From Ideonella aquatica (GTDB lineage Bacteria; Pseudomonadota; Gammaproteobacteria; Burkholderiales; Burkholderiaceae_C), in assembly GCF_018069755.1 (NCBI RefSeq), contig NZ_JAGQDE010000002.1, forward strand, positions 186,001 to 250,000: a stretch of DNA of 64,000 nt. The letters run 5' to 3'. Within the stretch, counting starts at the first letter, position 1. Every line of letters begins with the position of its first letter. Below are positions 29,734 through 57,266 of this stretch, piece after piece. A program made the translations under genes and the position numbers. Below the pieces are notes generated by a model that ran no database searches, was not told where the DNA came from, and worked only from the letters and a program-made list of their open reading frames with translations.

Positions 29734-29738
29734 ACATC

Positions 29739-34012: not shown

Positions 34013-34837
34013 ATGAATGCCCTGCGCGAACCTCTGTCCAGGCCGGGCGTGCGCAGCACCGGCCTGCTGGTGGTGTCAAGCCCGAAGTCGGGCACGATGT
34101 TTCTGACCCGCTGCCTGGAGCGGGCCAGCGGCCTGCATGCGGTGTTCGGCATTGAACACCCGGGGCCGGCAGAACTGCTGGCGCAGCTGCAGGCCAGCGG
34201 CTGGCATCCGCGGGTGCAGGAGCTGCTGAGCGCCGACAGCCCGTCGCACAGGCTGCTGGCCCAGCGCTACGGCCAGTACCTGGCGCGGCACCGCGAGGGT
34301 GGCGCCGAGGCGCCGCGCCTGGTCGCCGATCACGGCCTGCGCAGCTTCGCGCGCTTCATCGTGCAACCCACCCACGACGACCTGCTGCCGCCTGCCCAGG
34401 TCATGGCCTGGGCGCGCGCGCGTGGGCTGCAGGTGGGCTACCTGCAGCGCGACCTGAAATCGGTCGCCAACTCGCTGGTGCAGTTCCTGCTCGACGGCCG
34501 ATCGCGCCTGATCCGGCTGGATGACCCGGCGCGCGTCGCCGCCCTGGTGTGCGAGGTCTACGCCCCGATCCTGGCCGAGCAGGCGCGCCAATGGGCGCGC
34601 CTGGCGCCGTCCGCCGACCTGCACCGGGTCCGCTTCGACGACCTGCGCGCCGAGCCCGGCCCCCTCGTCGAGCGCCTGTGCGCCGCCGCCGGATGGCTGG
34701 CCGACGCGCGTGCACTCAGCGCGCAGGGCGAGCGGGCCTGGACCTACCGCGTCGATCAGAGCGCCACCTGGCAGCGCACCTTCACCGCGGCGCAGGTCGC
34801 CGCCCTGGATTCGCTCGAGGACTCCCTCCATGCCTGA
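34013..34837 (+). CDS. Sulfotransferase family protein
   Basis: A 274-residue P-loop protein. The 5'-phosphosulfate-binding loop SSPKSGTMFLTRCL (about residues 22-35) is the sulfotransferase version of a Walker A. RDLKSVANSLVQFLLDGRSR is the likely 3'-phosphate segment of PAPS binding (Arg and Ser), and RFDDLRAEPGPLVERLCAAAGW is the usual C-terminal family stretch. It would transfer sulfate from PAPS to a hydroxyl or amine. The end overlaps the AMP-ligase start by eight bases, so I place it in the polyketide cluster. Sulfation of the polyene product or of an outer-membrane glycoconjugate are both possible; the acceptor is unknown. Confidence 0.75.
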   Translation: MNALREPLSRPGVRSTGLLVVSSPKSGTMFLTRCLERASGLHAVFGIEHPGPAELLAQLQASGWHPRVQELLSADSPSHRLLAQRYGQYLARHREGGAEAPRLVADHGLRSFARFIVQPTHDDLLPPAQVMAWARARGLQVGYLQRDLKSVANSLVQFLLDGRSRLIRLDDPARVAALVCEVYAPILAEQARQWARLAPSADLHRVRFDDLRAEPGPLVERLCAAAGWLADARALSAQGERAWTYRVDQSATWQRTFTAAQVAALDSLEDSLHA

Positions 34838-36080
34838 CACCCTCCGCGCCGCGGCGCTGTGCTGCACCACCCACACCGCATTCGACCGCGCCCACCGGTG
34901 GGCGAGCAACCAGGGCCGCAGTGCCTGGCTGATCCCTGCCGGTGACTGGCAGCAGCTGGCCACGCTGCTGCGCGACCAGCCCGACGTGGTGGTGCTCACC
35001 GACCGGCCTGAGGATCCGCGCCTGGCGGCGTGGTCACCGATCGATGTTGCGAGCCTGCCCGAGGCAGCGGACTGGCCGACCGCCGCGCCGCAGCCGCTGG
35101 CCCTGCTGTTCACCAGCGGCAGCACCGGCGCACCCAGCGCACAGGCCAAGACGCTCGAACGCCTGCGCACCGAGCTGGCGGCGGTGATCGAGGTGCTGGG
35201 CCCCAGCCTGAACGGTGCGCGCTTTGTCACCACGCTGCCGCTGGAGCACACCTTCGGCTACAGCTTCGCCTATTGGCTGCCGCGCCTGGCCGGCGCCGAG
35301 TGCGTGCCCGAGCGCGTTGTCACGCCGGCGCGCTTGCGCCGGCTGGGCCAGGACAGCGACAGGCCGCTGTGGCTGATCACCACGCCGGTGCACATGAAGA
35401 GCTGCGTCGAGCTGGGCTTGCGCGTGGCCAACGTGGCCGGGGTGGTGAGCGCCACCAGCCCGCTGTCGAGCGAACTGGCGCGCGCGGCCGCGCACTGCTT
35501 TGGCGTACCCATCACCGAATGCTATGGCAGCACCGAAACCGGCAGCATCGCCTTCCGCCAGCGCCATGTCGACGAACAGGTGATGCCGCCCTGGCAACCG
35601 CTGCCAGGCGGGTGTGTGCTGCCGCAGGGTGAAGGGCATGCCTTCGTCGCCCCGCACCTGCCCGGGCCGGTGCCGCTGGCAGACCTGCTGGAGCCCTGCG
35701 GCGACGGCTTCCACATCATCGGCCGCCAAGGTGACCTGCTCAAGGTGTTCGGCAAGCGCCACTCGCTGGCCGCGCTCAACCAGAAGCTGTCGGCGCTGCC
35801 GATGGTCGCCGACGCGGCCTACTTCATGCCCGAGCCCGGTGAGCGCGCCGAGGCCGACCGGCCTGCGGCGGTGGTCGTGCTCAGGCCCGGCCATGCGCCG
35901 CAGGAGGTGCTCGACGCGCTGCGCGGCACGGTCGACGACGTCTTCCTGCCGCGTCCGCTGATCGTTGCTGACAGCCTGCCGCGCAACGCGGCCGGCAAGC
36001 TGCGCCGCGCGGATCTGCTGGCGCTGCTGCAGCAGGGCCAGTCCAGCGAACCGGCCGCCGCGGTGGCCGACATCCATTGA
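34830..36080 (+). CDS. Stand-alone AMP-binding acyl/aryl ligase (ApeH-like)
   Basis: A 416-residue ANL-superfamily enzyme, shorter than typical acyl-CoA ligases and like those of aryl-polyene clusters. The phosphate loop is LLFTSGSTGAPS (residues 92-103) and lacks the usual lysine that follows. The adenylation motif is ECYGSTETGS (about 230-239), the hinge is IIGRQGDLLKVFGKRHSL, and the C-terminal catalytic lysine lies in LPRNAAGKLRRADL. It probably activates the starter acid as an adenylate and loads it on the ACP encoded 0.8 kb downstream. With pabAB and pabC in the same run, 4-aminobenzoate or a derivative is a reasonable guess for the acid. Confidence 0.85.
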   Translation: MPDTLRAAALCCTTHTAFDRAHRWASNQGRSAWLIPAGDWQQLATLLRDQPDVVVLTDRPEDPRLAAWSPIDVASLPEAADWPTAAPQPLALLFTSGSTGAPSAQAKTLERLRTELAAVIEVLGPSLNGARFVTTLPLEHTFGYSFAYWLPRLAGAECVPERVVTPARLRRLGQDSDRPLWLITTPVHMKSCVELGLRVANVAGVVSATSPLSSELARAAAHCFGVPITECYGSTETGSIAFRQRHVDEQVMPPWQPLPGGCVLPQGEGHAFVAPHLPGPVPLADLLEPCGDGFHIIGRQGDLLKVFGKRHSLAALNQKLSALPMVADAAYFMPEPGERAEADRPAAVVVLRPGHAPQEVLDALRGTVDDVFLPRPLIVADSLPRNAAGKLRRADLLALLQQGQSSEPAAAVADIH

Positions 36081-36097
36081 CAAGGGAGGGACTGAGC

Positions 36098-36856
36098 GTG
36101 AATTGGACAAGTGACCTGTGCCGGGGCCGGACTGCCCTGGTCACCGGCGGCGCGCGCGGCATCGGTGCCGCCATCGCCGTCAATCTGGCACGACACGGTG
36201 CGCAGCTGGTGGTCAACGCGCGCACCGACAGCGCCGAGCTGGCGCAGACCATCGAGGAGATCAGCGCGCTGGGTGCCCCGGTGCTGGCCAGCGTCGGCGA
36301 CGTCAGCGACGCCGCCTACGTGGCTCGCCTGGCGGCGGCAGCGCAGGAACGCTTCGGTGGCGTGGACATCCTGGTCAACAACGCCGGCGTGATCCGCGAC
36401 AAGCCGCTGGCCTTCATGAAGGAGGAGGAGTGGCGCGAAGTGCTCGGCGTCTCGCTGGACGGCGCCTTCCACTGCAGCAAGGCCTTCGTGAAGGGCATGA
36501 TGAAGCGCCGCTGGGGCCGGATCATCAATGTGTCGTCCATCTCGGCCCTCTCGGGCCGCCCCGGCCAGGCCAACTACAGCGCCGCCAAGGCCGGCCTGAT
36601 CGGCTTCGCCAAGTCGCTGGCACGCGAGGTGGCGCCCTACAACGTGCTGGTCAATACCGCCGTGGTGGGCCTCGTCGACACGCGGATGACCCGTCAGATT
36701 CCCAGGGACACCCTGGAAGAGATCGCTGCCATGGTCCCGCTGCAGCGGGTGGGACAGCCGCGTGAGGTGGCCGACGTCTGCCTGTTCCTGGCTTCGGAGA
36801 TGTCGTCCTATTTGACTGCAACGGAAATCAACGTGAGCGGAGGAGCTTACATATGA
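36098..36856 (+). CDS. fabG: 3-oxoacyl-ACP reductase, SDR family
   Basis: A 252-residue short-chain dehydrogenase of FabG type. The NADPH motif is TGGARGIG (16-23), NNAG occurs at 94-97, and the catalytic Ser147, Tyr160 and Lys164 are in INVSSISALSGRPGQANYSAAKAG. The C-terminal SSYLTATEINVSGGAYI is classical. The GTG at 36098 is chosen because a strong gggaggg ribosome site lies eight bases before it, whereas the TTG at 36077 lies inside the preceding stop. It should reduce beta-ketoacyl-ACP intermediates during chain growth. Its stop overlaps the ACP gene start by four bases. Confidence 0.9.
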   Translation: MNWTSDLCRGRTALVTGGARGIGAAIAVNLARHGAQLVVNARTDSAELAQTIEEISALGAPVLASVGDVSDAAYVARLAAAAQERFGGVDILVNNAGVIRDKPLAFMKEEEWREVLGVSLDGAFHCSKAFVKGMMKRRWGRIINVSSISALSGRPGQANYSAAKAGLIGFAKSLAREVAPYNVLVNTAVVGLVDTRMTRQIPRDTLEEIAAMVPLQRVGQPREVADVCLFLASEMSSYLTATEINVSGGAYI

Positions 36857-37164
36857 GTCACCAACTGACCCTTGAGGAAGCCGGCGAGATCGCCGAGCGC
36901 CGACGCGGCCTGACGGCCCGCATGAAGCAGGCCCTGATCGAGCGGCTGTCACTGCAGCTGACGCCTGACGAGATCGCCGACGACAGCCCGCTGTTCGGCA
37001 CCGGCCTGGGCCTGGACTCGGTCGACGCGCTGGAGATCGCGATCCTGATCGAGCTGGAGTTCGACGTGCCCGTGTCGGATGACGAGCTGGCATCGTTCCG
37101 CTCCATCAACACGCTGGTCGACCTGGTCGAACAGCGCACCCAGGCGGCGGAGGTGGCGGCATGA
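36853..37164 (+). CDS. Acyl carrier protein
   Basis: A 103-residue carrier protein with the phosphopantetheine site Ser56 in GLGLDSVDALEIAI. A helical N-terminal extension of about 25 residues (LTLEEAGEIAERRRGLTARM) is longer than in FabI-pathway AcpP. DDSPLFGTGLGLDSVDALEIAILIELEFDVPVSDDELASFRSINTLVDLV is the four-helix core. It is the only ACP in the cluster, and the cluster carries its own phosphopantetheinyl transferase. It overlaps its neighbours by four bases on both sides. Confidence 0.93.
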   Translation: MSHQLTLEEAGEIAERRRGLTARMKQALIERLSLQLTPDEIADDSPLFGTGLGLDSVDALEIAILIELEFDVPVSDDELASFRSINTLVDLVEQRTQAAEVAA

Positions 37165-38162
37165 AGAGCAGCTACGACCTGTGCCGCGAATCGGCTGCGC
37201 TGATCGACCTCGACACCGAGGGTCGCTTCCTGGTGACCGGCGCCACCGCCCAGGCTGCGCTGGATGAGCTGGTCAGCGTGGACCTCTCGCGCCTGCGCCC
37301 GTGGCGCGGCATCTCGGCGCTGTTCCTGGCCGAGGACGCCTCGATCGTGGCCATCGCCACCGTCTTTCGCGTCGATGGCGGCTTCCAGGTCTTCACCGAA
37401 GCCGCGGCGGCCGAACGCCTCCACGACCACCTGGCCCAGGCCTTGGCGGCGCGCGGCGCCACCCTGGTCGACCAGCGGCGCAGCCACGCGTGGATCGCCA
37501 CGCTCGGCCCGGTGGCCCAGGACGTGATGATCAGCGCCGCCAGCGACGACATCGTCGGATTGCCCTACCTGTCGGCCGAGGCCAACGCGCTGCTGCGCGG
37601 CACCATCTTCCGCATGGGCAGCACCGGTGAGTTCGAGTACCGCGTGCTGGTGCCCGCCGAGCATGCCGAGGCCGCCTGGTCGGCACTGGAGGCGGCCGGC
37701 CGCCCGTTCGGCATCGCCCGCGTCGGCGCCGAGGTGCTCGACGCGCTTCAGTTGGAGATGCGCTCGCTGGTCGCGCGGGACATCCCTGCGGGCTACTCGC
37801 CCATCGAGGCGGGGCTGCATTGGATGGTCCACTTCGGCAAGGCGCATCTGGCTGCCGCCGAGGCGCTGACCGTGGCCCGTCAGGCACCGCGTGCGCGCTG
37901 CGTGTCCGTGATGTTCGACGAGGGCTCGCCGGCACCGGCGGCGAACAGCCGCCTGTACATCGGCGAGCGCGACGTCGGTGTGCTGGCCAGCGTCCAGTTC
38001 TCGCACACGCTGGGTCGGTCGGTGGGCGTGGCCTACATCGAGCCGGAGTTCGGCTGGGTCGGCGTGTCCTTCGTCGCCCGCACTGCCGACGGCCAGGCCG
38101 TGGCGCGCGCGGTATCGGCGCCGATGTTCGTCACCCGCACCGCCAAGGGAGCGTCGGCGTGA
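37161..38162 (+). CDS. GcvT/aminomethyltransferase-like protein
   Basis: A 333-residue protein with the GcvT/YgfZ/DmdA fold. The N-terminal part (SAALIDLDTEGRFLVTGATAQAALDELVSVDLSRLRPWRGISALFLAEDASIVAIATVFRV) matches the first half of GcvT without the usual initial His-Gly-Ala segment. LQLEMRSLVARDIPAGYSPIEAGLHWMVHFGKAHLAAAEAL matches the conserved Glu-Ala-Gly-Leu region, and a C-terminal beta-barrel follows. The family binds tetrahydrofolate and moves one-carbon units or repairs Fe-S proteins. It is sandwiched by four-base overlaps between the ACP and the CrtI-like gene, so it belongs to the polyketide unit. It might N- or O-methylate/demethylate the aryl head; this is a guess. No YgfZ K-G-C-x-G-Q-E motif is present. 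Confidence 0.72.
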   Translation: MKSSYDLCRESAALIDLDTEGRFLVTGATAQAALDELVSVDLSRLRPWRGISALFLAEDASIVAIATVFRVDGGFQVFTEAAAAERLHDHLAQALAARGATLVDQRRSHAWIATLGPVAQDVMISAASDDIVGLPYLSAEANALLRGTIFRMGSTGEFEYRVLVPAEHAEAAWSALEAAGRPFGIARVGAEVLDALQLEMRSLVARDIPAGYSPIEAGLHWMVHFGKAHLAAAEALTVARQAPRARCVSVMFDEGSPAPAANSRLYIGERDVGVLASVQFSHTLGRSVGVAYIEPEFGWVGVSFVARTADGQAVARAVSAPMFVTRTAKGASA

Positions 38163-39754
38163 GCGCGGCGGACCTTCCGCAAGCCAGCGCCTCGCGGCGA
38201 CACCGCGACCGGCTGGCTGCCAGCTACGACGTGGTCGTTGTCGGCGCAGGCGTCGGTGGCCTGACCTCGGCCGCGCTGCTGGCCGAGGCCGGTGCGCGCG
38301 TGCTGGTGGTCGAGCGCCAGCCTGTGCTGGGCGGCTTTTGCCACAGCTGGTACCGGAAGGTCCGCCACCAGGGCGAGATGAAGCGCTTTCGCTTCGATGC
38401 CGGCGCGATGGACTTCTCCGGCGCCCACCCGGGCGGCACCATCCGCGCGGTGTTGCAACGCGTGGGCGCCGACGACAAAGTGCGCTGGCGGCCGCTGGAG
38501 CACACCTACCGTCAGGGCCGTCTGTCGCTGGATGTGCCGCACGACTGGCGTGAATGGCAGGACACGCTGTGCGGCCAGTTCCCTGAAGAGGCCGAGGGCA
38601 TCCGCGGCTTCTTCGATGCCATGCGCCTGGTCGCCGACGCCCGCCATAGCCTGGCGCCCCACAACGGTGGCGTCCCGCGCCAGCCGCGTGGCGAGGCCGA
38701 GCTGCGCAGCTTCGCCGAGCGGCACGCCTTCGCCCACCAGTGGAAGGACCGACCGGTCACCGAACTGCTGGCGCGACACGTGACGCGCCCGCAGGTGGCG
38801 GCGCTGCTGCTGCGCCTGTCGCACTACCTGACGGAGAACCGCGACACGCTCAGCGTGGCCCGTGCCGCCGACCTGTTCCGCTTCTACTTCGTCGGCGGCT
38901 ATTACCCCGAAGGCGGTACCGGCCGTCTGCCCGACGCCCTGGCCGAAGCCGTCGAGGAACGTGGCGGCACCGTGCTGTCGAACGCCTCGGTCGAGCGCAT
39001 CATGCTGCGCGCCGGACGGGTGTGCGGCGTGCGCCTGGACGACGGGCGGGAGATCGCCGCAGCGGTGGTGATCTCCAACGCCGACATCCGCCGCACCTTT
39101 GGCGAACTGCTGGAGCCTGGCGCGGTCTCGCCCGAGGTGGCGCGCGCTCTGGCGGCGATGAAGCCCACCCCCTCGGGATTCACCGTCTACCTGGCGGTCG
39201 ATTTCGTGCCGCAGCGTCTGCGCTCGTACACCGTTGACGCCAACTACGCCTTTCACGTGCCCTCGCTGGTCGACCCGGGCGCCGCGCCGGCGGGCTGCTC
39301 GGTGTTCGAGGTGCGCACCATTTTCAGCGACACCGCGAACTGGTTCCCGGCAGACGCCGAGCACGACGACTGGCGCGCCACGCCGGCCTACGCGGTGCGG
39401 AAACGCCGCTTCGGCGACTGGCTGCTGCGCCAGGCGGCACAGGTCGTGCCCGAGTTGCACGAGCATGTTCTCTACCGCACCGACGCCAGTCCGCTCACCT
39501 ACGCCCGTTACGGCCACTCGATAGGCGGCGCGCTGTACGGCTGGAGCGGCCGGCCCGAGGGCTTCGACAACGGCCGCACCAGCGTTCCAGGCCTGTACCT
39601 GGTGGGCAGCAGCGCGCTCGGCTCGGGCATCGAGACCGTGATGATTTCCGGCGCCAATGCCGCCGAGTCGCTGGTCCCCGGCCTGCTGGCCGATGCGGCT
39701 CGGTTCACGCCGCCCGTCACCCCCCCTCGTGAGCTGGCCCTGGCCGCGAACTGA
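38159..39754 (+). CDS. Phytoene-desaturase (CrtI)-like FAD/NAD(P)-binding oxidoreductase
   Basis: A 531-residue flavoprotein of the CrtI/carotenoid-isomerase/retinol-saturase group. The dinucleotide motif DVVVVGAGVGGLTSAALLAEAGARVLVVERQPVLGGFCHS lies at about residues 24-62. YYPEGGTGRLPDALAEAVEERGGTVLSNASVERI and VVISNADIRRTFGELL are typical mid-domain segments. The C-terminal GLYLVGSSALGSGIETVMISGANAAESL closes the FAD site. The GTG start overlaps the GcvT-like stop by four bases. In a polyene pathway it could isomerise double bonds or add unsaturation. No carotenoid precursor genes are present, so a role in carotenoids is unlikely. Confidence 0.82.
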   Translation: MSAADLPQASASRRHRDRLAASYDVVVVGAGVGGLTSAALLAEAGARVLVVERQPVLGGFCHSWYRKVRHQGEMKRFRFDAGAMDFSGAHPGGTIRAVLQRVGADDKVRWRPLEHTYRQGRLSLDVPHDWREWQDTLCGQFPEEAEGIRGFFDAMRLVADARHSLAPHNGGVPRQPRGEAELRSFAERHAFAHQWKDRPVTELLARHVTRPQVAALLLRLSHYLTENRDTLSVARAADLFRFYFVGGYYPEGGTGRLPDALAEAVEERGGTVLSNASVERIMLRAGRVCGVRLDDGREIAAAVVISNADIRRTFGELLEPGAVSPEVARALAAMKPTPSGFTVYLAVDFVPQRLRSYTVDANYAFHVPSLVDPGAAPAGCSVFEVRTIFSDTANWFPADAEHDDWRATPAYAVRKRRFGDWLLRQAAQVVPELHEHVLYRTDASPLTYARYGHSIGGALYGWSGRPEGFDNGRTSVPGLYLVGSSALGSGIETVMISGANAAESLVPGLLADAARFTPPVTPPRELALAAN

Positions 39755-39772
39755 CCGACAAGGACCTCTTGC

Positions 39773-40969
39773 ATGCACCCCGAGCTCGTCATCACCGCCG
39801 CCAGTGCGGTCGGCCCCTTCGGCGACGACCCGCAGTCGCTGTGGTCATCCCTGACCGCCGGGCAGCCGCTGCCGCTGCCGCCCTGCGTGGACGCCGGCAC
39901 CCTGCCGGACTTCGACCTGCGGCGCTTCCACGACTCGCGTGACGGCCATCGACGCCCGCGCACCTCGCAGTACGCGATGGCCGCCGCAGCCCGTGCGATC
40001 GGCCAAGCCCGGCTGGACAGCGACCCACAGGTCGACCGCGACGAGGTCGCCATCGTCTACGGCACCGGCACCGGCCCGGTCTCGCTGACGCAGCGCATGC
40101 TCGCGGCCTTGGTCGACAAGGGCCTGACCGGCGTCGAGCCGCTGTGGTTCCAGGAAAGCGTGTTCAACGCGCCGGCGAGCTGGGTGGGCATCGAGTTCGG
40201 CTTCCGCGGCCCCCTGGTGGCGCTGCCCATGGGCTGGGCCGCCGGAGGTCACGCACTGGCCACCGCAGCCGACATGCTGCAGTTCGGCCACGCCGAGATC
40301 GCGCTGGTGCTGCTGTCCGACGAGCTGGCGCCGGTGGCCGAGCAGGCCTACCGCGCGCTGGGCATGACCACGCCGAACGACGGCGGTGACGACGCCACGC
40401 GCCCGCTCGACCGGCGCGCCAACGGCACCCGGCTGGGCGAGGGCGCCGCGGCGGTGGTCCTCGAGACCGCCGAGTCGGCCCGCCGCCGGGGCGTCACGCC
40501 GCTGGCCCGTCTGACCGGCTGGTCGGTGACCTCGGACGAGTTTGGCGTTGGCGCCAAGGACGCCGGCACGCCGGCGCTTGACGACGCGATGACGGCCGCA
40601 CTGGCCATGGCTGGCCGCCAGCAGGTCGATGCGGTCTACTCCGGCGCCTACGGGACGCTCGACGCCGCCCGCGCCGAGGCCCACGCGATGCAGCGGGTGT
40701 TCGGTCCGCAGCAGCCGCCGCTGACCAATATCCGCGGCGTGGTCGGCGAGGCGCGTGGCGCCACCGCGCTCTGGAACATCGTGGCGGCCCTGTCCTCGCT
40801 CGATACCGGCCTGCTGCCGCCAGCCGTCGGTTGCGAGCAGCCAGACCCCGACTGGGGCCTGCGTATCGCCGGCCAGGACGAGCCGCCGGACGCCATCGAC
40901 ACCGTGCTGTGCAATGCCTACTGGGTCAACGGCGTCAACACCAGCATCGTGCTGGAGACCGCGCGATGA
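39773..40969 (+). CDS. Ketosynthase-like protein lacking catalytic residues (chain-length-factor-like)
   Basis: A 398-residue beta-ketoacyl synthase homologue with the family frame (ITAASAVGPFG, LDRRANGTRLGEGAAAVVLETAE, FGPQQPPLTN). All three catalytic positions are altered: the active-site segment reads ALPMGWAAGG, with Ala156 where Cys is needed; the first His region reads VYSGAYGTLD; the second reads NIRGVVGEARG, with Glu in place of His. It cannot condense by itself and may pair with an active ketosynthase as a chain-length factor. It is related to the protein at 45715, which keeps Cys but shows the same Gly-Glu change. It overlaps the malonyl-transferase gene by four bases. Confidence 0.82.
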   Translation: MHPELVITAASAVGPFGDDPQSLWSSLTAGQPLPLPPCVDAGTLPDFDLRRFHDSRDGHRRPRTSQYAMAAAARAIGQARLDSDPQVDRDEVAIVYGTGTGPVSLTQRMLAALVDKGLTGVEPLWFQESVFNAPASWVGIEFGFRGPLVALPMGWAAGGHALATAADMLQFGHAEIALVLLSDELAPVAEQAYRALGMTTPNDGGDDATRPLDRRANGTRLGEGAAAVVLETAESARRRGVTPLARLTGWSVTSDEFGVGAKDAGTPALDDAMTAALAMAGRQQVDAVYSGAYGTLDAARAEAHAMQRVFGPQQPPLTNIRGVVGEARGATALWNIVAALSSLDTGLLPPAVGCEQPDPDWGLRIAGQDEPPDAIDTVLCNAYWVNGVNTSIVLETAR

Positions 40970-48233: not shown

Positions 48234-48943
48234 ATCCTCACGTCCGCCTGCGGGGCATCTCCCGCACCTACCGCCTGGGCGCGGTCGATGTCCCGGCCCT
48301 GCAGGAGATCGATCTCGACATCCTGCCCAACCGCTTCACGGTCATTTCGGGCGCCTCAGGCAGCGGCAAGACCACGCTGCTGAACCTGATCGGTTGCATC
48401 GACCGCCCCGAGGCCGGCCAGCTGCACATCGACGGCGTCGACGTGCTGGCCCTGTCCGACAACGCGCTGTCGGACTTCCGCGCGCGCCGACTGGGCTTCA
48501 TCTTCCAGACTTTCAACCTGGTGCCGGTACTCAGCGCCTACGAAAACATCGAGTACCCATTGCGGTTGGCCGGCGTGCCCGCGGCCGAGCGGCGCGAACG
48601 CGTGCTCGAGCTGCTCGAGGCGGTGGGGCTGGCTGACCGCGCGCCGAACCGGCCCGGTGAGCTCTCCGGCGGCCAGCGGCAGCGCGTGGCCATTGCCCGC
48701 GCGCTGGCCAGCCGGCCCAGCCTGGTGCTGGCCGACGAGCCCACCGCCAACCTCGACAGCCGCACCGGCGCCGCCATCCTCGCGCTGATGCGCGACATGC
48801 AGCGCCGCTACCACGTCTCCTTCGTCTTCTCCTCGCATGACCCCGGGCTCATGGAGCAGGCTGACGACTCGGTGCAGATGCGTGACGGCCGCATCGTCGC
48901 CATCCATCGACAAGAAGAAGCCACTTCGGAGCTCGCAGCATGA
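48230..48943 (+). CDS. MacB/LolD-type ABC transporter ATP-binding protein
   Basis: A 237-residue ATPase. Walker A is [15 protein letters not shown], the Q-loop region is [21 protein letters not shown], the signature [15 protein letters not shown] and Walker [13 protein letters not shown]. These mark the type VII (MacB/LolCDE/FtsE) group that extracts or expels amphiphilic molecules from the inner membrane. It is coupled to the KS genes and permease by four-base overlaps, so it is dedicated to the cluster product and not to general lipoprotein sorting. Confidence 0.93.
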
Positions 48944-50322: not shown

Positions 50323-50336
50323 AGGAAAGCACCTCG

Positions 50337-51113
50337 ATGAAACTCCTCCGAATCCTCCTGGCCCTGGCCCTGGCCCTGGCGGGCGCCGCATCGCTGGCGA
50401 CGGCAGCCGACGAGGCCAGCCGCATCCTCGAGGCCAGCGACGCCGTGCGCAACCCCGACAAGCCGTTCCGTCTGCGCGTCACGCTGACCGAGTACCGCGA
50501 CGGCCGCCAGACCGCGCAGAACGGCATGGACGTCTTCTCGCGCCTGCTGCCGGGCGAGCGCCAGTACGCCAATCTGGTGCGTTTCGTCGCACCCGAGCGC
50601 GATCTCAACAAGCTGATGCTCAAGTCCGGCAAGGACCTGTGGTTCTACGACCCGACCAGCAAGGCGCAGGTGCGCATCGCGCCGCAGCAGCGTCTGTTGG
50701 GTCAGGTCTCCAACGGCGACGTGGTGACAACCAACTGGTCGCAGGAATACCAGGCCGAGATCAAGGGTCCGGAGGACATCCTCGACGGCGACCGCCAGAC
50801 CTGCAAGTGCATGCACCTGTCGCTCTCGGCCAAGGTGCAGGAGGCCACTTACAAGCGCATCGACCTGTGGGTCAACGCCAGCCACGCACCGATCAAGGCC
50901 TACTTCCATTCCGAGAGCGGGCACCTGCTGAAGACCGCCTTCTACCGCAAGTACAAGCCGGTCCTGGGCAGCCCACGGCCGACCGAGATGGTCATCATCG
51001 ACGGCCTGCAGCCGAACTGGGTGACGGTGATGCGCTTCGGCGACCACGCCTGGTTCGACGTTCCCGACAGCTGGCTGCGCCCCGAGTACCTGGCCAGGGT
51101 GAAGGTGAACTGA
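50337..51113 (+). CDS. LolA-like outer-membrane lipoprotein-sorting protein (PF17131 type)
   Basis: A 258-residue periplasmic protein with signal peptide MKLLRILLALALALAGAASLATAADE. The body DKPFRLRVTLTEYRDGRQTAQNGMDVFSRLLPGERQYANLVRFVAPERDLNKLMLKSGKDLWFYDPTSKAQVRIAPQQRLLGQVSNGDVVTTNWSQEYQAEIKGPEDI is characteristic of the LolA-like carriers found next to MacB-type permeases. Its half-barrel should carry a hydrophobic molecule across the periplasm. Between the exporter and an outer-membrane barrel gene it forms the middle link of an envelope transport route. Confidence 0.87.
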   Translation: MKLLRILLALALALAGAASLATAADEASRILEASDAVRNPDKPFRLRVTLTEYRDGRQTAQNGMDVFSRLLPGERQYANLVRFVAPERDLNKLMLKSGKDLWFYDPTSKAQVRIAPQQRLLGQVSNGDVVTTNWSQEYQAEIKGPEDILDGDRQTCKCMHLSLSAKVQEATYKRIDLWVNASHAPIKAYFHSESGHLLKTAFYRKYKPVLGSPRPTEMVIIDGLQPNWVTVMRFGDHAWFDVPDSWLRPEYLARVKVN

Positions 51114-52369
51114 TGCGCGCCCTGTTCATGCTGATGCTGCTGTCGCTGGCCCAAGGCCCGGCGCGGGCACTGGACGAGGCCGCCGCGCTGGACCTGGCCG
51201 ATCAGGCGCCTGCACTGGCCACCGGTTCAGGCACGCCCTCATGGCAGGGACGGCTGGAGCTGGCCCAGGGCTGGCAGCGTTCACCCGACGGCGGCCACCA
51301 CCATGGCAGCCGCGTGTCGCTGGTCGCCCGCCATGACCGCTCACTGGGCGACGGCTGGCGCGGCGTGCTCGACGACCGCCTCGACCTTTCCCGCGCCGAC
51401 CGCCCGGCGCAGGACGCCAGCGTCCATTCGCTGCGCGAGGCCTATGTCGGCTATGCGCCCGACGACCAGGCCAGCTGGGAGTTCGGCCGCATCAACCTGC
51501 GCGGCGGCCTGGCCCAGGGCTACAGCCCGGTGGACTACTTCCGCGCCAGCGCGGTGCGTTTCCAGGTGCCCGGCGACCCGACGCAGCTCAAGAGCGAACG
51601 CCTGGGCAGCGTGGCGCTGCGGCTGCAGCAGGTGTGGCCGCAGGACGCGCTGGAGCTGGCCTATGTGCCGCGCATCGGCGGTGGCGCCAGCGAAGCGGTG
51701 CTCGACCCCGACTGGGGCCGCACCAACGCCAGCGAGCGGCTGCTGGTGCGCTGGACGCACGACCTGGGCCAGGGCCTGCGGCCGCAGGCCTCGCTGCTGC
51801 ATGAGGCCGGCCGGCCGCTGCGTCTGGGCCTGGGCCTGAGCACGGTGGTCGGCGAGGCCAGCGTGGCCTACCTGGACTGGAGCGGCAGCCGCGTCGCCGC
51901 CGCGCTGGACCAGGCCGCAGGGCTCGCCGGCACACCGTCGTTTCACCAGCAGTTCTCGCTCGGCTGGACCTACACCACGGCACAGCAGGTCGGCATCACG
52001 CTCGAATACGACCGCGACAACGCGGCGCCCGACAGCGCCGAGTGGGCGGCTCTGCGTGCGGCGCCGGGCCTGGGGTACGGCCGATACCGCCAATGGGCGC
52101 AGCAGCGCCAGGAGCTGGTCACGCGCAGCGGCTGGTTCCTGCGCGTCACTGCCAGCGACGTGCTGACGCCCGGTCTTGGCCTGACGCTGATCGCCCGCCG
52201 TGACCAGGCCGACCGCAGCGCCTTCCTGTGGGGCGAGCTGCGCTACCGCTGGAGCGGCCAGGTGGACCTGGCGCTGCAGGCCCAGGCCACACGTGGCGGC
52301 CCGACGACCAACTACGGCGCGGCCCCCGACCGGCGCGCCTGGCAGTTCACCTGGACCGGCTACTTCTGA
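51113..52369 (+). CDS. Outer-membrane beta-barrel-like protein of unknown function
   Basis: A 418-residue exported protein. The signal peptide is MRALFMLMLLSLAQGPARA. The remainder alternates amphipathic strands and turns (SVHSLREAYVGYAPDDQASWEFGRINLRGGLAQGYSPVDYF, SVALRLQQVWPQDALELAYVPRIGG, LGLGLSTVVGEASVAYLDWSGSRV, QFSLGWTYTTAQQVGITLEYDRD), as in outer-membrane barrels. It ends WTWTGYF-like, with a terminal Phe as required for BAM insertion. Its ATG overlaps the LolA-like stop by one base (TGATG). It probably accepts the cluster product at the outer membrane; I cannot name a family. Confidence 0.75.
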   Translation: MRALFMLMLLSLAQGPARALDEAAALDLADQAPALATGSGTPSWQGRLELAQGWQRSPDGGHHHGSRVSLVARHDRSLGDGWRGVLDDRLDLSRADRPAQDASVHSLREAYVGYAPDDQASWEFGRINLRGGLAQGYSPVDYFRASAVRFQVPGDPTQLKSERLGSVALRLQQVWPQDALELAYVPRIGGGASEAVLDPDWGRTNASERLLVRWTHDLGQGLRPQASLLHEAGRPLRLGLGLSTVVGEASVAYLDWSGSRVAAALDQAAGLAGTPSFHQQFSLGWTYTTAQQVGITLEYDRDNAAPDSAEWAALRAAPGLGYGRYRQWAQQRQELVTRSGWFLRVTASDVLTPGLGLTLIARRDQADRSAFLWGELRYRWSGQVDLALQAQATRGGPTTNYGAAPDRRAWQFTWTGYF

Positions 52370-52507: not shown

Positions 52508-52957
52508 ATGTTCCACCGCACCGGGCGCACCGCCGCCATCACCACCAAGGGAGTCATTGCCATGCTCGCCATCGCCTCCACCACCGCCATGGCCGGAGAC
52601 CTCGTCGTCAACGTCGAGACTCTGGACGGCCAGGCCGGCCAACTCGTCGTCAACCTGTTCGCCAGTGCCGACACCTTCCGCAAGACGCCCAAGGCGCAGG
52701 TGATGGTGCCGGCCTCCAAGCAGAACGCGCAAGGGCAACTGTCGGCGGTCTTCAGCAACCTGCCGGCCGGCGAGTACGCGCTGCTGGCCTTCCACGACAA
52801 GGATGGCGACGGCAAGCTGGCGCGCAACCTGGTGGGTATCCCGACCGAGCCCTATGCGTTCTCCGGCCAGCCGGCCAAGTTCGGCCCGCCCGACTACAAG
52901 GACGCGGCCTTCGCACTGCCCGCCGGCGGCGCCACGATCAACATCAAGCTCAAGTAA
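52508..52957 (+). CDS. DUF2141 secreted protein
   Basis: A 149-residue exported protein. The signal peptide is TTKGVIAMLAIASTTAMAGD. LVVNVETLDGQAGQLVVNLFASADTFRK and LPAGEYALLAFHDKDGDGKLARNLVGIPTEPYAFSG are typical of DUF2141, a small extracytoplasmic beta-sandwich family often found near pigment, carotenoid or lipid genes. The acidic loop DKDGDGK is EF-hand-like and may bind calcium. It follows the barrel gene after 138 bases with its own gagagg ribosome site; that gap shows nothing else I can name. Confidence 0.87.
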   Translation: MFHRTGRTAAITTKGVIAMLAIASTTAMAGDLVVNVETLDGQAGQLVVNLFASADTFRKTPKAQVMVPASKQNAQGQLSAVFSNLPAGEYALLAFHDKDGDGKLARNLVGIPTEPYAFSGQPAKFGPPDYKDAAFALPAGGATINIKLK

Positions 52958-52966
52958 GCCGGCGCT

Positions 52967-52990: not shown

Positions 52991-53017
52991 GCGCTGCATA
53001 CACAGGGGAGGAAACAC

Positions 53018-53512
53018 ATGTCCAACGTTCCGTACTGGGTCTTCGCCATCCTCGTCGGGCTGGTGATCCTGGGCCTGCTCCAGGCCCGCCCGAGCAGGGC
53101 CTCGCGCGGCAAGGTGCTGACCATGCCGCTGGTCATCACACTGGTGTCGCTGAGCGCCATCGTCCAGCTGTTCGGCTGGAACCTGGCGGCACTGGCCGCC
53201 TGGGGGCTTGGCCTGTCACTGCTGGTCGCCAAGCGCCGACTGATCAGTTTCAGCGCGCAGGCGTCATTCTCTGCATCGCAGGAGGTCTTTCTGATCCCGG
53301 GCAGCTGGCTGCCTCTGGCCTTGCTGATGGGACTGTTCGCGCTGCGCTTCTTCGCTACGGGCAGCCTGGTGCGGCATCCCGAGTTGGCCGAGCAACTGTC
53401 CTATGCAGCACTGATCGGCCTGGGCTTCGGTGTGTTCGCCGGCGCCTTCGTCGCCCGCAGCCTGCTGATCTTTGGCCGAGCCTACGGCCCCAACAAGCTC
53501 ATTGTCGACTGA
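53018..53512 (+). CDS. Four-helix membrane protein of unknown function (DUF6622-like)
   Basis: A 164-residue inner-membrane protein with four or five hydrophobic segments: YWVFAILVGLVILGLLQAR, MPLVITLVSLSAIVQLFGWNLAALAAWGLGLSLLVA, WLPLALLMGLFALRFFATG and YAALIGLGFGVFAGAFVARSLLIFG. The pattern reminds me of DUF6622, which I cannot confirm. The ATG at 53018 follows aggggaggaa, a strong ribosome site. It lies between the export genes and the 4-aminobenzoate genes and may belong to the cluster, but nothing indicates its job. Confidence 0.68.
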   Translation: MSNVPYWVFAILVGLVILGLLQARPSRASRGKVLTMPLVITLVSLSAIVQLFGWNLAALAAWGLGLSLLVAKRRLISFSAQASFSASQEVFLIPGSWLPLALLMGLFALRFFATGSLVRHPELAEQLSYAALIGLGFGVFAGAFVARSLLIFGRAYGPNKLIVD

Positions 53513-53547
53513 GCCACCGGCCGTCGACGAACCCAGGGAGGACCCCC

Positions 53548-55635
53548 ATGACCATCAGCCTCGTCATCGACAACCACGACTCGTTCACCTTCAACCTGGT
53601 GCACCTGCTGGAGATCGTCAACGGCGCGCCGCCGATCGTCGTGCGCAACGACGAATGCAGCTGGGAGCAGTTGCAGCGCCTGTCGTTCGACAACATTGTG
53701 TTGTCGCCCGGCCCCGGGCACCCGGACGTGCCCGCCGACTTCGGCGTCTGTCGCGATGTGCTGCGGCACAGCCAGGTACCGGTGCTGGGCGTGTGCCTGG
53801 GACACCAGGGTGCCGGCTCGCAGGCTGGCGGCCGCGTCACCCGGGCCCCCGAGCCGGTGCACGGCAAGACCGCCCGGCTGCGGCACAGTGGCCAGGGCCT
53901 GTTCGAGGGTCTGCCTCAGCAGCTGGAGGTGGCGCGCTACCACTCGCTGATCCTGGAGCGCCCGCTGCCGCCGGATCTGGTCGAGACCGCCTGGACCGAG
54001 GACGGGCTGCTGATGGCGTTCGAGCACCGCCACAAGCCCCAGTGGGGCGTGCAGTTCCACCCCGAGTCGATCATCAGCGAGGGGGGACGTGAACTGCTTG
54101 AGAACTTCCGTCGCCTGACCCTGGCCCACCAGGCGCAGCGGGCAGCGCCTGCGGCGCCGGACGAAGGCCGCCGGCGCGCCTTCTGGTGCGAGGGTCCGGC
54201 CGGCCTGGATGCCGAGGCGGCCTTCCGGCTGCTGTACGCAGACGCGCCCACCGCCTTCTGGCTCGACGGCGGCCTGGTCGGCCCGGGTCCATCGCGCTGG
54301 AGCTACCTGGGCGATGCGCGCGGCCCGAACGCCGCGCTGCTGAGCTACCGCTGCGCTGGCCAGGTGCTGGAGATCGACTCGCCCGATGGCCGCCAGCGGC
54401 TCGACCAGGACATCTTCGCGCACCTCGACGCGCGCCTGCGCGTGCCGGTGGACACGCCGCCGCCCTGTCCCTTCCAGGGCGGGCATGTGGGCTGGTTCGG
54501 CTACGAGCTGCGCCCCGGCGGCTTGCCGCCCAGCCCGCAGCGCGCCGCGACGCCCGATGCGCTGTTTGTGCAGGTCGACCGCTACCTGGCCATCGACCAC
54601 CTGAACCGCCGCAGCTACCTCGTGGCGATCGACACCCCCGGGCAGGCCGCCCGCGCCAACGCCTGGCTGGCGCAGACCAGCGCGCTGCTCGACGGGCTGG
54701 CGGGACAGCCGCCCGCCTCGATGCAGGCGCCGACGCCGCGCGGCGCGATGCCCGAGTTCGTGCTCGACCGCGACGAGGCCACCTACCTCGCCGACGTGAC
54801 ACGCTGCCTCGACTGGATCGGCCAGGGCGAGACCTACCAGGTCTGCCTGACCAACGAGATCCGCTGCCGCAGCGACCTCGACCCCTGGCAGCTCTACACC
54901 ACGCTGCGGCGGGTGAATCCGGCGCCCTTTGCCGCCTTCGTGCGCTGGCCCGGTGGCGCAGTGCTGAGCGCCTCGCCGGAGCGCTTTCTGAGTGTGGACG
55001 CGCAGGGCCTGGTCCAGACCAAGCCGATCAAGGGCACGATCCGCCGCGCGCCGGACGCCGAGGCCGATGCGCGCCTGGCCGAGACGCTGCGCACCAGCAT
55101 CAAGGACCGTGCCGAGAACGTGATGATCGTCGACCTGCTGCGCAATGACCTCTCGCGCGTGTGTCAACCCGGCAGTGTGGTGGTGCCCAAGCTGTTCGGC
55201 ATCGAGTCATTCAAGACCGTGCACCAACTGGTCAGCACCGTGCAGGGGCAACTGCGGGACGGCCTCAGCGTGATCGACGCAGTGCGCGCCACCTTCCCCG
55301 GCGGCTCGATGACCGGCGCGCCCAAGGAGCGCACGCTGCAGCTGATCGACGAACTGGAGCAGCGTCCGCGCGGCGTCTACTCCGGTGCGCTCGGGTGGCT
55401 GGGCCACGACGGCGCGGCCGACCTGAGCATCGTCATCCGCACGATCGTCAGCGCCGGTGGCGAGCTGAGCTTCGGCGTCGGTGGCGGGGTGGTGGCCAAC
55501 TCGACGCCCGAGGGCGAGTTCGCCGAGATGCTGCTCAAGGCGCAGGCCACGATGGCAGCGATCCACGCCGCCACACCGGTGCGCCAGGCACTCGCCGAGG
55601 CCGCACCGGCGGCGCTGGCGGCGGAGCCCGCATGA
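53548..55635 (+). CDS. pabAB: Aminodeoxychorismate synthase, PabA-PabB fusion
   Basis: A 695-residue fusion. Residues 1-190 are a class I glutamine amidotransferase: IDNHDSFTFNLVHLL, nucleophile Cys83 in GVCLGHQGAGSQAGG, His171 and Glu173 in VQFHPESI. Residues about 210-690 are the chorismate-using synthase half. The catalytic-loop motif is PIKGTIRR with Lys495, the lysine typical of aminodeoxychorismate synthase (PabB), whereas anthranilate synthase has Pro-Ile-Ala-Gly. Further family stretches are GETYQVCLTNEI, DLLRNDLSRVC, FPGGSMTGAPKERTLQLIDELEQRPRGVYSGALGWL and IVIRTIV. It makes 4-amino-4-deoxychorismate from chorismate and glutamine. It probably provides starter pABA for the polyketide cluster, or it supplies folate. 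Confidence 0.93.
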   Translation: MTISLVIDNHDSFTFNLVHLLEIVNGAPPIVVRNDECSWEQLQRLSFDNIVLSPGPGHPDVPADFGVCRDVLRHSQVPVLGVCLGHQGAGSQAGGRVTRAPEPVHGKTARLRHSGQGLFEGLPQQLEVARYHSLILERPLPPDLVETAWTEDGLLMAFEHRHKPQWGVQFHPESIISEGGRELLENFRRLTLAHQAQRAAPAAPDEGRRRAFWCEGPAGLDAEAAFRLLYADAPTAFWLDGGLVGPGPSRWSYLGDARGPNAALLSYRCAGQVLEIDSPDGRQRLDQDIFAHLDARLRVPVDTPPPCPFQGGHVGWFGYELRPGGLPPSPQRAATPDALFVQVDRYLAIDHLNRRSYLVAIDTPGQAARANAWLAQTSALLDGLAGQPPASMQAPTPRGAMPEFVLDRDEATYLADVTRCLDWIGQGETYQVCLTNEIRCRSDLDPWQLYTTLRRVNPAPFAAFVRWPGGAVLSASPERFLSVDAQGLVQTKPIKGTIRRAPDAEADARLAETLRTSIKDRAENVMIVDLLRNDLSRVCQPGSVVVPKLFGIESFKTVHQLVSTVQGQLRDGLSVIDAVRATFPGGSMTGAPKERTLQLIDELEQRPRGVYSGALGWLGHDGAADLSIVIRTIVSAGGELSFGVGGGVVANSTPEGEFAEMLLKAQATMAAIHAATPVRQALAEAAPAALAAEPA

Positions 55636-55700
55636 GCCGGCGCGCAGCCTGGGCCGGGCTCGGCATGGGGTGGCCGGTGTGCCGAGGAGTCCCGTTGTGA
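55632..55700 (+). CDS. Bridging micro-ORF between pabAB and pabC
   Basis: A 22-codon ORF (MSRRAAWAGLGMGWPVCRGVPL) whose ATG overlaps the pabAB stop (ATGA) and whose TGA overlaps the GTG start of pabC (GTGA). The exact two-sided overlap suggests that ribosomes finishing pabAB could run through it to pabC. Equally, it could be chance because a gagga ribosome site lies before the GTG. No function is claimed for the peptide. Confidence 0.3.
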   Translation: MSRRAAWAGLGMGWPVCRGVPL

Positions 55701-56563
55701 GCGTTCTTGTCGAGACCCGCCCGCAGGCCGTGCCGCCGCATGGCCTGCCGTTGGACGAGGAGGTCTGGCTCAACGACCAGATCATGGCCCGCGCCACGGC
55801 GCTGATCAGCGTGAGCGACCGCGGCCTGAACCTGGCCGATGGCGTGTTCGAGACCCTGCTGGTGCAGGATGGCCGCCCGCTGTGGCTGGGCGACCACCTG
55901 GCCCGCCTGCGGCAGGGGGCACAGCGGCTGCGCCTGCCGCTGCCCTGGTGCGACGATGCCATCGGCCGCGGCCTGGCGGCGCTGTTGTCGCGCGCCGAGG
56001 TCGGCCACCGCTGCGTCGCGCGCATCACGCTGACCCGCGGACCGGCCGCCACACGCGGCCTGTGGCACCCCTGTGAGCCGGTGCGCCCCACCTTGCTGAT
56101 GGGGCTGTCCCCCTGGAGCGCCAATCCGGTCCAGCATGTGGTGCTGGCACGGCAGACCTGCCGCAACGAACGATCGCCGCTGAGTGGCATCAAGTCGCTG
56201 GCTTACGGCGACCAGCTCCTGGCCCGACAGGAGGCGCTGGACCGCGGCGCCACGGACGCCCTGCTGTGCGACACCCGCGGTCGATTGGCCTGTGCCACGG
56301 TGGGCAATGTGTTCCTGCACATCGACGGCAGCTGGTACACGCCATGGCTGAACAGCGGGGTGCTGCCGGGGCTGGCGCGCCGGCGACTGATCGCCCGACT
56401 GCAGGCCCGCGACACCGCGCTGCCCTCCGCGCGGCTGGTCGATGCCGACAGCGCGTTCATCTGCAACAGCCTGGGCTGCGCACCGATCGCCAGCATCGAT
56501 CAGCGTGAACTGCAGCCGCCGCCCCGCTGGGACCACATCGCCGGCATCTACCACGAGGACTGA
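55697..56563 (+). CDS. pabC: Aminodeoxychorismate lyase / branched-chain-aminotransferase-like class IV enzyme
   Basis: A 288-residue fold-type IV PLP protein. LNDQIMARATALISVSDRGLNLADGVFETLLVQDGRPLWLGDHLARL is the N-terminal family pattern. The PLP lysine is Lys166 in LSGIKSLAYGDQLLARQEA. The ATVGNVF and SGVLPGLARRRLI segments close the cofactor pocket. Adjacent to pabAB it most likely eliminates pyruvate from aminodeoxychorismate to give 4-aminobenzoate. A D-amino-acid or branched-chain aminotransferase is an alternative. The GTG at 55697 is preferred; ATG codons further in would remove the NDQIM region. Confidence 0.87.
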   Translation: MSVLVETRPQAVPPHGLPLDEEVWLNDQIMARATALISVSDRGLNLADGVFETLLVQDGRPLWLGDHLARLRQGAQRLRLPLPWCDDAIGRGLAALLSRAEVGHRCVARITLTRGPAATRGLWHPCEPVRPTLLMGLSPWSANPVQHVVLARQTCRNERSPLSGIKSLAYGDQLLARQEALDRGATDALLCDTRGRLACATVGNVFLHIDGSWYTPWLNSGVLPGLARRRLIARLQARDTALPSARLVDADSAFICNSLGCAPIASIDQRELQPPPRWDHIAGIYHED

Positions 56564-56564
56564 G

Positions 56565-57266
56565 TTGCAACTCCAGGTGCACATCCTGGCTCTGCCGACC
56601 CGGGCGCCTCCCGCTGAGCGGTGGTTGGAGCTGTTCGACGCGCAGGAACGTCGTCAGCTGGCCGCGCTCACCCAGCCCCGGGCGCAGCTGCTGCACCTGG
56701 CGGGTCGGCTGCTGGTCAAGCACCTGGCCGCCGAGCGCAGCGGCTGGCGCGCCGCTGACCTGGCCGTGCGGCCCGATCCGATGGGCCGGCCGCGGCTGCC
56801 GGCACTGCCCGATCTGCACGTCAGCATCAGCCATGCGGTGGACCGTGTGGCCTGCGTGCTGGCGCCGACGGCCGCGCTGGGAATTGACCTCGAGTGCCCG
56901 CACCGTCGCCTGCCGTCGCCCGCGGCGCGCCTGCGCTACCTGGATGACTGCGAGCGCCGATGGTTGCTGGGACATCCGGTGCCGGCACAGGCGCGTGCCT
57001 TCCTTCGGCTCTGGACACACAAGGAGGCGGTGATGAAGGCCGATGGCCGCGGCCTCGCACTGGGGCTCACGCGGGTGCGCCTGCAGCCCCAGGAAGGCGG
57101 GGCACTGCGTGTGCGCGAGATGTCAGGTGCCGACGCCCGTCCATGGCGCATCACGGGGGGCCAGTGTGGCGGCTACCCGTGGGCCATGGCCTGGGACAGC
57201 AGTGGTTTGACGCTGGACGGCGTGAGCCTGCGCAGGCGAATGTGGCCGGCCTGGCTCCGCGGCTGA
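56565..57266 (+). CDS. Sfp-type 4'-phosphopantetheinyl transferase
   Basis: A 233-residue PPTase. The Mg2+ motif GIDLE is at residues 106-110, HVSISHAVDRVACVLA precedes it (ppt-1 region), and WTHKEAVMKADGRGL (150-164) is the third motif with the catalytic Glu and Lys. It should convert the cluster's apo-ACP to the holo form. The likely start is the TTG at 56565, one base after the pabC stop; a GTG at 56577 is an alternative. It is the last gene of the + strand run; 78 bases on begins the convergent acylase. Confidence 0.87.
   Translation: MQLQVHILALPTRAPPAERWLELFDAQERRQLAALTQPRAQLLHLAGRLLVKHLAAERSGWRAADLAVRPDPMGRPRLPALPDLHVSISHAVDRVACVLAPTAALGIDLECPHRRLPSPAARLRYLDDCERRWLLGHPVPAQARAFLRLWTHKEAVMKADGRGLALGLTRVRLQPQEGGALRVREMSGADARPWRITGGQCGGYPWAMAWDSSGLTLDGVSLRRRMWPAWLRG

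Follow-up and report, generated by a model that had tools for sequence, protein, structure and literature searches.

The 64,000-nucleotide window of Ideonella aquatica analysed here (contig NZ_JAGQDE010000002.1, positions 186,001 to 250,000; 70% GC, from a contig of a 5.17-Mb genome) carries a cluster of 24 genes, all on the plus strand, which spans 34013-57266 in a Pfam scan of the window. The cluster has the layout of a single operon inside a genomic island, and its gene content argues with good confidence for the synthesis of an aryl-primed polyene, whatever the starter. The full reading, in which the chain is primed with 4-aminobenzoate (p-aminobenzoic acid, pABA), is favoured to a lesser degree. 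In its logic the system resembles the known aryl-polyene pigments, but the enzymes that lengthen the chain are of a separate lineage. In order, the genes are:

34013-34837, plus strand: sulfotransferase-like protein, borderline (PF13469 at 27.1 bits, cut-off 27, scanned from 34049)
34830-36080, plus strand: ApeH/ArcT-type aryl-acid AMP ligase (PF00501/PF13193)
36077-36856, plus strand: FabG-like ketoreductase (KR), start uncertain (Pfam PF13561, NCBIfam FabG)
36853-37164, plus strand: acyl carrier protein (ACP; PF00550, DSVD serine)
37161-38162, plus strand: GcvT-like protein, catalytic Asp lost (PF01571, alignment)
38159-39754, plus strand: CrtI/carotenoid-isomerase-like FAD oxidoreductase, start uncertain (PF01593; best NCBIfam model TIGR02730, below cut-off)
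39773-40969, plus strand: CLF1, ketosynthase (KS)-like protein of chain-length-factor (CLF) type, without catalytic Cys/His (Pfam, alignment)
40966-41907, plus strand: malonyl-CoA:ACP transacylase (MAT; PF00698, GHSLG motif)
41892-43028, plus strand: ketosynthase KS2, Cys-His-His (Pfam, alignment)
43025-43573, plus strand: KSfrag, 182-aa truncated KS partner (PF00109, weak AmcG match)
43570-44037, plus strand: 4HBT thioesterase (TE; PF13279)
44025-45281, plus strand: ketosynthase KS3, Cys-His-His, FabF-like (Pfam, alignment, tree)
45278-45718, plus strand: FabZ-like dehydratase (DH; PF07977, NF000582 above cut-off)
45715-46965, plus strand: CLF4, KS-like protein of CLF type, without Cys/His at the aligned columns (Pfam, alignment)
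46962-48233, plus strand: ketosynthase KS5, Cys-His-Tyr, second His lost (Pfam, alignment)
48230-48943, plus strand: LolD/MacB-type ABC ATPase (Pfam, NCBIfam)
48940-50322, plus strand: FtsX/LolE-type permease (Pfam, homologues)
50337-51113, plus strand: LolA_like periplasmic protein (PF17131)
51113-52369, plus strand: putative outer-membrane barrel of the exporter module (place in module; homologue in 19 of 20 exporter neighbourhoods)
52508-52957, plus strand: DUF2141 protein (PF09912)
53018-53512, plus strand: DUF6622 protein (PF20327)
53548-55635, plus strand: fused PabA-PabB aminodeoxychorismate (ADC) synthase (PF00117, PF04715 and PF00425; TIGR00553; PIKGT)
55697-56563, plus strand: class IV aminotransferase fold, ADC-lyase-like (PabC; PF01063, best NCBIfam model ADC lyase, below cut-off)
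56577-57266, plus strand: Sfp-type phosphopantetheinyl transferase (PPTase; PF01648, GTG start, after pabC)

With the chosen starts, on which the counts depend (those of the KR and the flavoenzyme are uncertain), 19 of the 23 junctions overlap or have a gap of at most 18 bases; the remaining four, downstream of the barrel gene, have gaps of 35-138 bases. This junction pattern is that of a single operon. A gene caller based on third-position GC (GC3) found 22 of the 24 frames, and the two it missed, KSfrag and the PPTase, are backed by Pfam matches. Every enzyme named in an earlier sequence-only reading of this DNA was found, on the plus strand and with the expected families: AMP-binding, SDR/KR, PP-binding, GCV_T, Acyl_transf_1, ketoacyl-synt (six proteins), 4HBT and FabA/FabZ, then ABC_tran, FtsX/MacB_PCD, LolA_like, GATase with Chorismate_bind, Aminotran_4 and ACPS. 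The CrtI-like flavoenzyme, the truncated KS, DUF2141 and DUF6622 come in addition to that list. For the PPTase, also foreseen there, the genome has just one further gene of the ACPS family. A sulfotransferase and a possibly sulfated product had been proposed as well; the gene match is at the curated cut-off, where no single stretch passes alone, and the proposed sulfation depends on this borderline match.

The proposed pathway would start with PabAB and PabC, which would convert chorismate to 4-aminobenzoate. The ApeH-type ligase would load this acid onto the ACP of the island, which the PPTase encoded there would activate, and MAT would provide malonyl units. KS3 and KS2 may then elongate the chain, with CLF1, CLF4 and KSfrag, the KS-like proteins that lack the Cys, as their partners. 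As the cluster has no separate enoyl reductase, KR and FabZ would leave one double bond per round. The CrtI-like flavoenzyme might isomerise or adjust the polyene, the 4HBT thioesterase would release it, and the ABC/FtsX/LolA-like/barrel module would carry it to the outer membrane.

The earlier claim of a KR and a DH without enoyl reductase is supported, in a type II fatty-acid-synthase-like logic. No separate enoyl reductase gene was seen among the cluster genes, the DH is FabZ-like and the KR is FabG-like. For the KR, the highest-scoring Pfam model is PF13561 (adh_short_C2), which carries an enoyl-ACP reductase description; in NCBIfam, 3-oxoacyl-ACP reductase (FabG) models come first, and one of these passes its cut-off (NF009466, 244.9 vs 222 bits).

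The ligase is 29% identical to Escherichia coli ApeH. It has relatives at E ≤1e-20 in 8 of 72,556 plasmid records, and both of the two records examined, from Roseomonas and Azospirillum, hold aryl-polyene-type clusters. Their ligases, 34-37% identical to that of the island, sit with LolA, an MMPL transporter, a KS, a chain length factor and FabG; the Azospirillum cluster adds an annotated dehydratase. The adenylation motifs lie within the aligned part of these ligases. Given this kinship, and since ApeH (PMC8253772) and ArcT (PMC3949708) are described as acting on hydroxybenzoates, an aryl-acid starter is well supported. ArcT with its XanB2-type enzyme is described as a ligase paired with a chorismate-using starter enzyme, and offers a precedent (PMC3949708).

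For the identity of that starter, PabAB and PabC point to pABA, which we regard as the somewhat better choice. PabAB scores 365 bits on TIGR00553 (cut-off 328.4) and carries PIKGT where the TrpE-like protein of the genome has PIAGT; this lysine is a mark of ADC synthases. Elsewhere in the genome lies a 632-aa protein with a Chorismate_bind match, whose C-terminal part reads to us as PabC. We label this PabB-PabC-like fusion the housekeeping copy, so the island PabAB and PabC, as extra copies, look dedicated and are probably not needed for folate. The earlier claim that the cluster brings its own pABA genes is therefore upheld, in the form of an ADC synthase and an ADC-lyase-like partner additional to the fusion. 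The searches made returned no closely related pABA-carrying cluster. A literature search that fell short of most subscription journals found nothing on aryl polyenes with aminobenzoate or PABA and, by title, nothing on this gene combination.

The first alternative, and a rather unlikely one, is that the aryl polyene has 3- or 4-hydroxybenzoate, or some different aryl acid, as its starter, with PabAB and PabC serving some other need, for instance an amino building block or folate. It would suit the hydroxybenzoate substrates of the characterised ligases, in whose type of cluster the island ligase has its kin, as well as the low specificity described for ArcT in vitro (PMC3949708) and the BenE aromatic-acid symporter inside the same island. 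Against this, the island Pfam matches contain no chorismatase or chorismate lyase, and dedicated extra PABA genes are present.

By alignment, KS2 and KS3 keep Cys-His-His at the aligned columns and KS5 has Cys-His-Tyr, its Tyr standing for the second catalytic His in the context TKPMYGYP. The Cys and the two His are all missing from CLF1 and CLF4; KSfrag is truncated and without the Cys. In a 41-row tree, KS3 pairs with a KS of Leisingera (support 98/87), KS5 joins them (95/90) and KS2 joins more weakly (81/71). The KS2/KS3/KS5 group lies apart from ApeO, ApeR, FabF-type and anammox/Omnitrophota rows in this tree, which has long branches for several rows, including KS2 and KS5, and did not include xanthomonadin, flexirubin, dialkylresorcinol (DAR) and ishigamide KSs. 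Identities to E. coli ApeO and ApeR are 28-35% (about 31%). The island KS proteins thus make up a separate clade and are not orthologues of the aryl polyene (APE) enzymes. KS3 matches 217 plasmid records, all below 60% identity; KSfrag has no relatives in plasmid records and KS5 none there at 1e-60, and scans of viral contigs gave a single 47% KS piece. CLF1 has a match at 1e-35 in 54 of 241 other genomes of the phylum, at 25-34% identity and probably to FabF-type proteins. The rest of the genome holds a single full KS, of FabF type on contig C33, plus four partial matches that cover 37-42 positions and are probably thiolases.

The closest counterpart of the chain-lengthening genes comes from a KS3 scan of species contigs, in which 429 candidates gave 292 confirmed and 80 kept stretches. 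The KS of Leisingera sp. ANG-M1 is 60% identical to KS3; the other 79 kept stretches reach 36-44%. Its locus (NZ_JWLC01000040.1) has the same order as the island, CLF1-MAT-KS2-KSfrag-TE-KS3-DH-ABC-FtsX-LolA. Besides KS3, identities are 36-52% for CLF1 (three readable pieces), 43% for MAT, 43-47% for KS2, 38-39% for KSfrag, 46% for TE, 50% for DH, 48% for the ABC ATPase, 25% for FtsX and 32% for LolA. KSfrag is most likely a real gene, since it is kept in both loci; KSfrag as ApeC was considered and rejected, with no similarity found. In its 20 kb with runs of N, the Leisingera locus has no CLF4 or KS5 as best match, and a frame downstream reads PPTase-like without a Pfam match. The literature search found no published description of this Leisingera type II polyketide synthase (PKS) locus; the accessible part of a 2019 mBio paper mentions ANG-M1 solely among inactive extracts (PMC6819662).

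The cluster had been called aryl-polyene-like. The ApeH-type ligase and the KR and DH without a separate enoyl reductase bear this out; the KSs, which fall in a separate clade, and the lack of a PF13723 factor above cut-off and of an MMPL transporter do not. With APE, xanthomonadin and arcuflavin clusters the island has in common an ApeH-type ligase, ACP, KR, DH, 4HBT thioesterase, LolA-type carrier, a KS with a KS-like partner and the lack of a separate enoyl reductase. It differs from APE in its KSs, apart from E. coli ApeO/ApeR, and in holding MAT, the flavoenzyme, the GcvT-like gene, PabAB/PabC and the PPTase inside. No ApeC match was found, CLF1 reaching 21.3 bits on PF13723 (cut-off 25), and ApeB, ApeD and ApeJ were not matched in the cluster at E 0.01. 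Pfam matched no MMPL protein in the cluster; LolA_like is present, with ABC/FtsX instead of MMPL. By description, not by sequence, the island also resembles the lower chain of manumycin and asukamycin, in which an aminobenzoate-type starter is extended to a polyene; unlike the island's presumed pABA, the starter described for manumycins is 3-amino-4-hydroxybenzoate (3,4-AHBA; PMC8000086), and those clusters are actinobacterial.

Several points weigh against a polyene with a pABA starter. Both product and activities are predicted from the genes. The ligase substrate is not readable from its sequence, and the best NCBIfam model, 4-coumarate CoA ligase (TIGR02372), gives 96.5 of 334.7 bits, below the cut-off. 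PabC likewise has its best NCBIfam match, ADC lyase, at 112 bits, where the cut-offs are 176.85 and 260. PabAB- and PabC-like matches also lie beside fab-type genes in two other loci (L189 and L208), so neighbourhood alone is weak evidence. In the Leisingera 20 kb, which contains N runs and is cut upstream by the contig end, pabAB, pabC, the GcvT-like gene and the flavoenzyme are unmatched, so pABA genes may not be a fixed part of clusters of this kind. Host fatty-acid enzymes could, moreover, reduce the intermediates.

The GcvT-like protein recalls CylF of the granadaene (cyl) operons, to which it is likened by its GCV_T family and not by CylF sequence. Where the genome's own GcvT and SoxA-like rows have DD, plasmid proteins of Enterobacter bugandensis and Rahnella sikkimica have GD and the window protein has AI; the arginine of LRLE is Gln in the window protein. 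The Asp that the window protein has lost is the catalytic one. On the two plasmids KR, FabZ, ACP, a GcvT-like gene, KS, ABC exporter, LolA-like gene and MAT occur together, and the window protein is 26-27% identical to their GcvT-like proteins. Across the order, 29 of 398 other genomes match it at E ≤1e-20, none above 30% identity; the six aligned are mostly sarcosine-oxidase-alpha-like (our label). The family (249 other genomes) gave no match at E ≤1e-30 and the genus (15 others) no match at E ≤1e-15. Six exact 8-residue patterns, an insensitive kind of search, hit 67 stretches of the species contigs and yielded zero relatives.

The plasmid loci were also recorded in their own right. E. bugandensis pEC105227L (14662-29509), the R. 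sikkimica plasmid (7183-22015) and, with split frames, Klebsiella aerogenes carry a Gram-negative polyene-type cluster of acpS, KR, FabZ, ACP, GcvT-like (Asp kept), two KS, ABC, LolA and MAT genes, with a granadaene-like resemblance. In Enterobacter and Rahnella it lies directly 3' of a two-partner-secretion hemagglutinin pair.

It is improbable that the operon makes a granadaene-like non-aryl polyene in the cyl pattern, with the aryl genes added later. Like cyl operons, it combines a GcvT-like gene with KS, KR, DH, ACP, MAT and an ABC exporter, as do the Enterobacter and Rahnella clusters with the same exporter type. CylF, in turn, is reported to occur throughout the cyl operons; its role is described as unsettled, with an ammonia supply for ornithine as the proposal (PMC6985545). 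However, ornithine, sugar and N-acyltransferase genes are not among the annotated island genes (the CylE sequence was not compared), an ApeH-type ligase is present, and the GcvT-like protein is distant from the plasmid ones and has lost the catalytic Asp.

A more specific form of the aryl-polyene reading is possible and is put forward tentatively: a separate type II polyene synthase lineage with a PABA supply of its own would make a 4-aminobenzoyl-primed polyene, and its degenerate GcvT-like protein would indicate that CylF-type proteins of polyene operons act structurally or in the assembly line and do not supply ornithine ammonia. The core CLF1-MAT-KS2-KSfrag-TE-KS3-DH would then be common to the island and the squid-associated Leisingera.

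The KS2-KSfrag pair could also be read as a KS with a cyclization factor, as in cispentacin and coronafacic acid, giving a five-membered ring instead of or on the polyene. The cispentacin AmcF-AmcG type II PKS likewise joins a KS to a reduced KS-like partner, and KS2 reaches 225.8 of the 325 bits that the AmcF model requires, KSfrag 24.3 of 80 for the AmcG model. This is highly improbable, as both matches are below cut-off, KS3 beats KS2 on AmcF (251.7 bits; KS5 177.4), KS2 scores higher on FabF (262.6 bits), the DH is FabZ-like rather than AmcE-like (133.5 vs 56.1 bits) and an AmcE-type cyclase is absent from the island genes. Equally improbable is a modified fatty acid or membrane lipid without a polyene, whose chain the flavoenzyme and housekeeping reductases would act on. 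FabF-type enzymes with 38-45% identity to KS3 occur in 83 of 274 genomes of the class (own included), the nearest solved structures of KS3 are FabF-type, the closest PDB chain belongs to entry 9s5h, and Omnitrophota loci pair KS and DH with a CrtI-like flavoenzyme, but the cluster has its own ligase, MAT, ACP and PPTase, no separate enoyl reductase and aryl-ligase kinship. In those Omnitrophota loci (L140 and L174), KS, DH, KS and the flavoenzyme stand in a row, with a KR match in L140 only, a ladderane-like order.

The ABC exporter had been listed among the features that set the cluster apart from known ones, but a survey of its relatives shows that it is not particular to this cluster. Of 398 other genomes in the order, 18 have FtsX homologues, at 21 places in all. 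At the 20 places examined, some of whose stretches end at contig ends, ABC-FtsX-LolA was present in all 20, the barrel in 19, an SDR match in three and KS genes in one. The four-gene ABC-FtsX-LolA_like-barrel set thus appears to be a self-standing module, mostly without KS genes nearby, that signals envelope export and not cluster kinship; as a marker of related clusters it was rejected, with KS genes at 1 of 20 places. The outer-membrane barrel of the sequence-only reading stands as a gene of this module; its family does not, as Pfam and NCBIfam give no match, an AlphaFold model from two sequences has a pLDDT of 35, and the barrel assignment rests on module position. In Paraburkholderia ginsengisoli the exporter set also has polyketide-type genes as neighbours, and in Aliiroseovarius it has KS genes. 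On an Aliiroseovarius crassostreae plasmid (L068, 4486-27923) it adjoins KS, ligase, ACP, trpA, trpD, UbiX and an anthrone-oxygenase-like gene, with UbiD at the stretch edge, possibly an anthranilate-linked type II polyketide cluster. In another genome of the order (G177; L111/L131), KS and CLF genes are followed by open frames of nonribosomal-peptide-synthetase size, the same exporter and a PPTase-like match.

The unit had been placed at 34013-57266. The cluster genes do lie there; the inserted unit starts further upstream, near 26772 by flank comparison. In blastn against the window, matches of two sister species (G908 and G918) end at 26771/26748 on the left and 57345/57335 on the right, with flank identities of 89-90% (left) and 94-95% (right) and the flanks adjacent to each other. 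In place of 26772-57334, a spacer of 1.3 kb in G908 contains a frame that looks, by eye, serine-hydrolase-like, and G918 has a spacer of 0.7 kb. Since both lack this stretch at the same site, the cluster belongs to one island of about 30.5 kb that includes upstream regulator and metabolic genes. Of the 16 genomes in the genus, 10 match the right-flank penicillin amidase gene, the present one among them, and eight of the nine others were compared (G916 was left out). In G919 and G917 that gene is followed by a chemoreceptor homologue (46-47%), with zero island genes in the stretch compared; the other four have no left-flank match. The island and the genes upstream of the operon are:

26772-57334, no strand: island of about 30.5 kb, missing at the same site in two sister species (blastn)
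26849-28270, minus strand: MocR-type regulator (GntR and aminotransferase domain), EhuR-like, divergent to the operon (Pfam; NCBIfam EhuR 412.6 bits, cut-off 480)
28486-29733, plus strand: serine hydroxymethyltransferase-like protein (SHMT; PF00464, NF000586 above cut-off)
29706-30959, plus strand: BenE-family benzoate/H+ symporter (PF03594, TIGR00843 above cut-off)
30995-32152, plus strand: FAD amino-acid oxidase-like protein (DAO; PF01266, no NCBIfam match at 1e-20)
32228-32677, plus strand: RidA-family imine deaminase (TIGR00004 above cut-off)
32796-34001, plus strand: threonine-synthase-like pyridoxal phosphate (PLP) enzyme (PF00291, TIGR00260 above cut-off)

The last of these ends 11 bases upstream of the sulfotransferase-like gene. 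A known catabolic operon at 26849-34001 was considered and rejected: nine DAO neighbourhoods, examined out of 40 other places and including the genome's own second DAO copy, contain no SHMT, BenE, RidA or PLP enzyme. The island is close to its host in GC (0.71 vs 0.70) and GC3 (0.90 vs 0.93), and its codon-usage distance from the flanks is 0.17, compared with 0.12 between halves of the flank genes. No repeat longer than 12 exact bases is common to both ends, and the adjoining genes (by Pfam phytase-like, chemoreceptor, penicillin amidase, DUF1415 and Hsp90) include no integrase. The island was probably gained in this lineage horizontally, a simpler reading than loss in the sisters.

If the starter is pABA, an amino head would join the known heads of Gram-negative polyenes, which are of the 3- or 4-hydroxybenzoate and coumarate type. 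Such a head would open new chemistry in colour, redox behaviour and acylation, and the locus would provide a gene set for testing it. A GcvT-like gene without an ornithine context makes the CylF-type role testable; if it is needed here, ornithine ammonia supply would not be the general role. The Leisingera locus, in turn, suggests a family of polyene synthases that may be separated out or overlooked when searches are trained on the ketosynthases of APE clusters.

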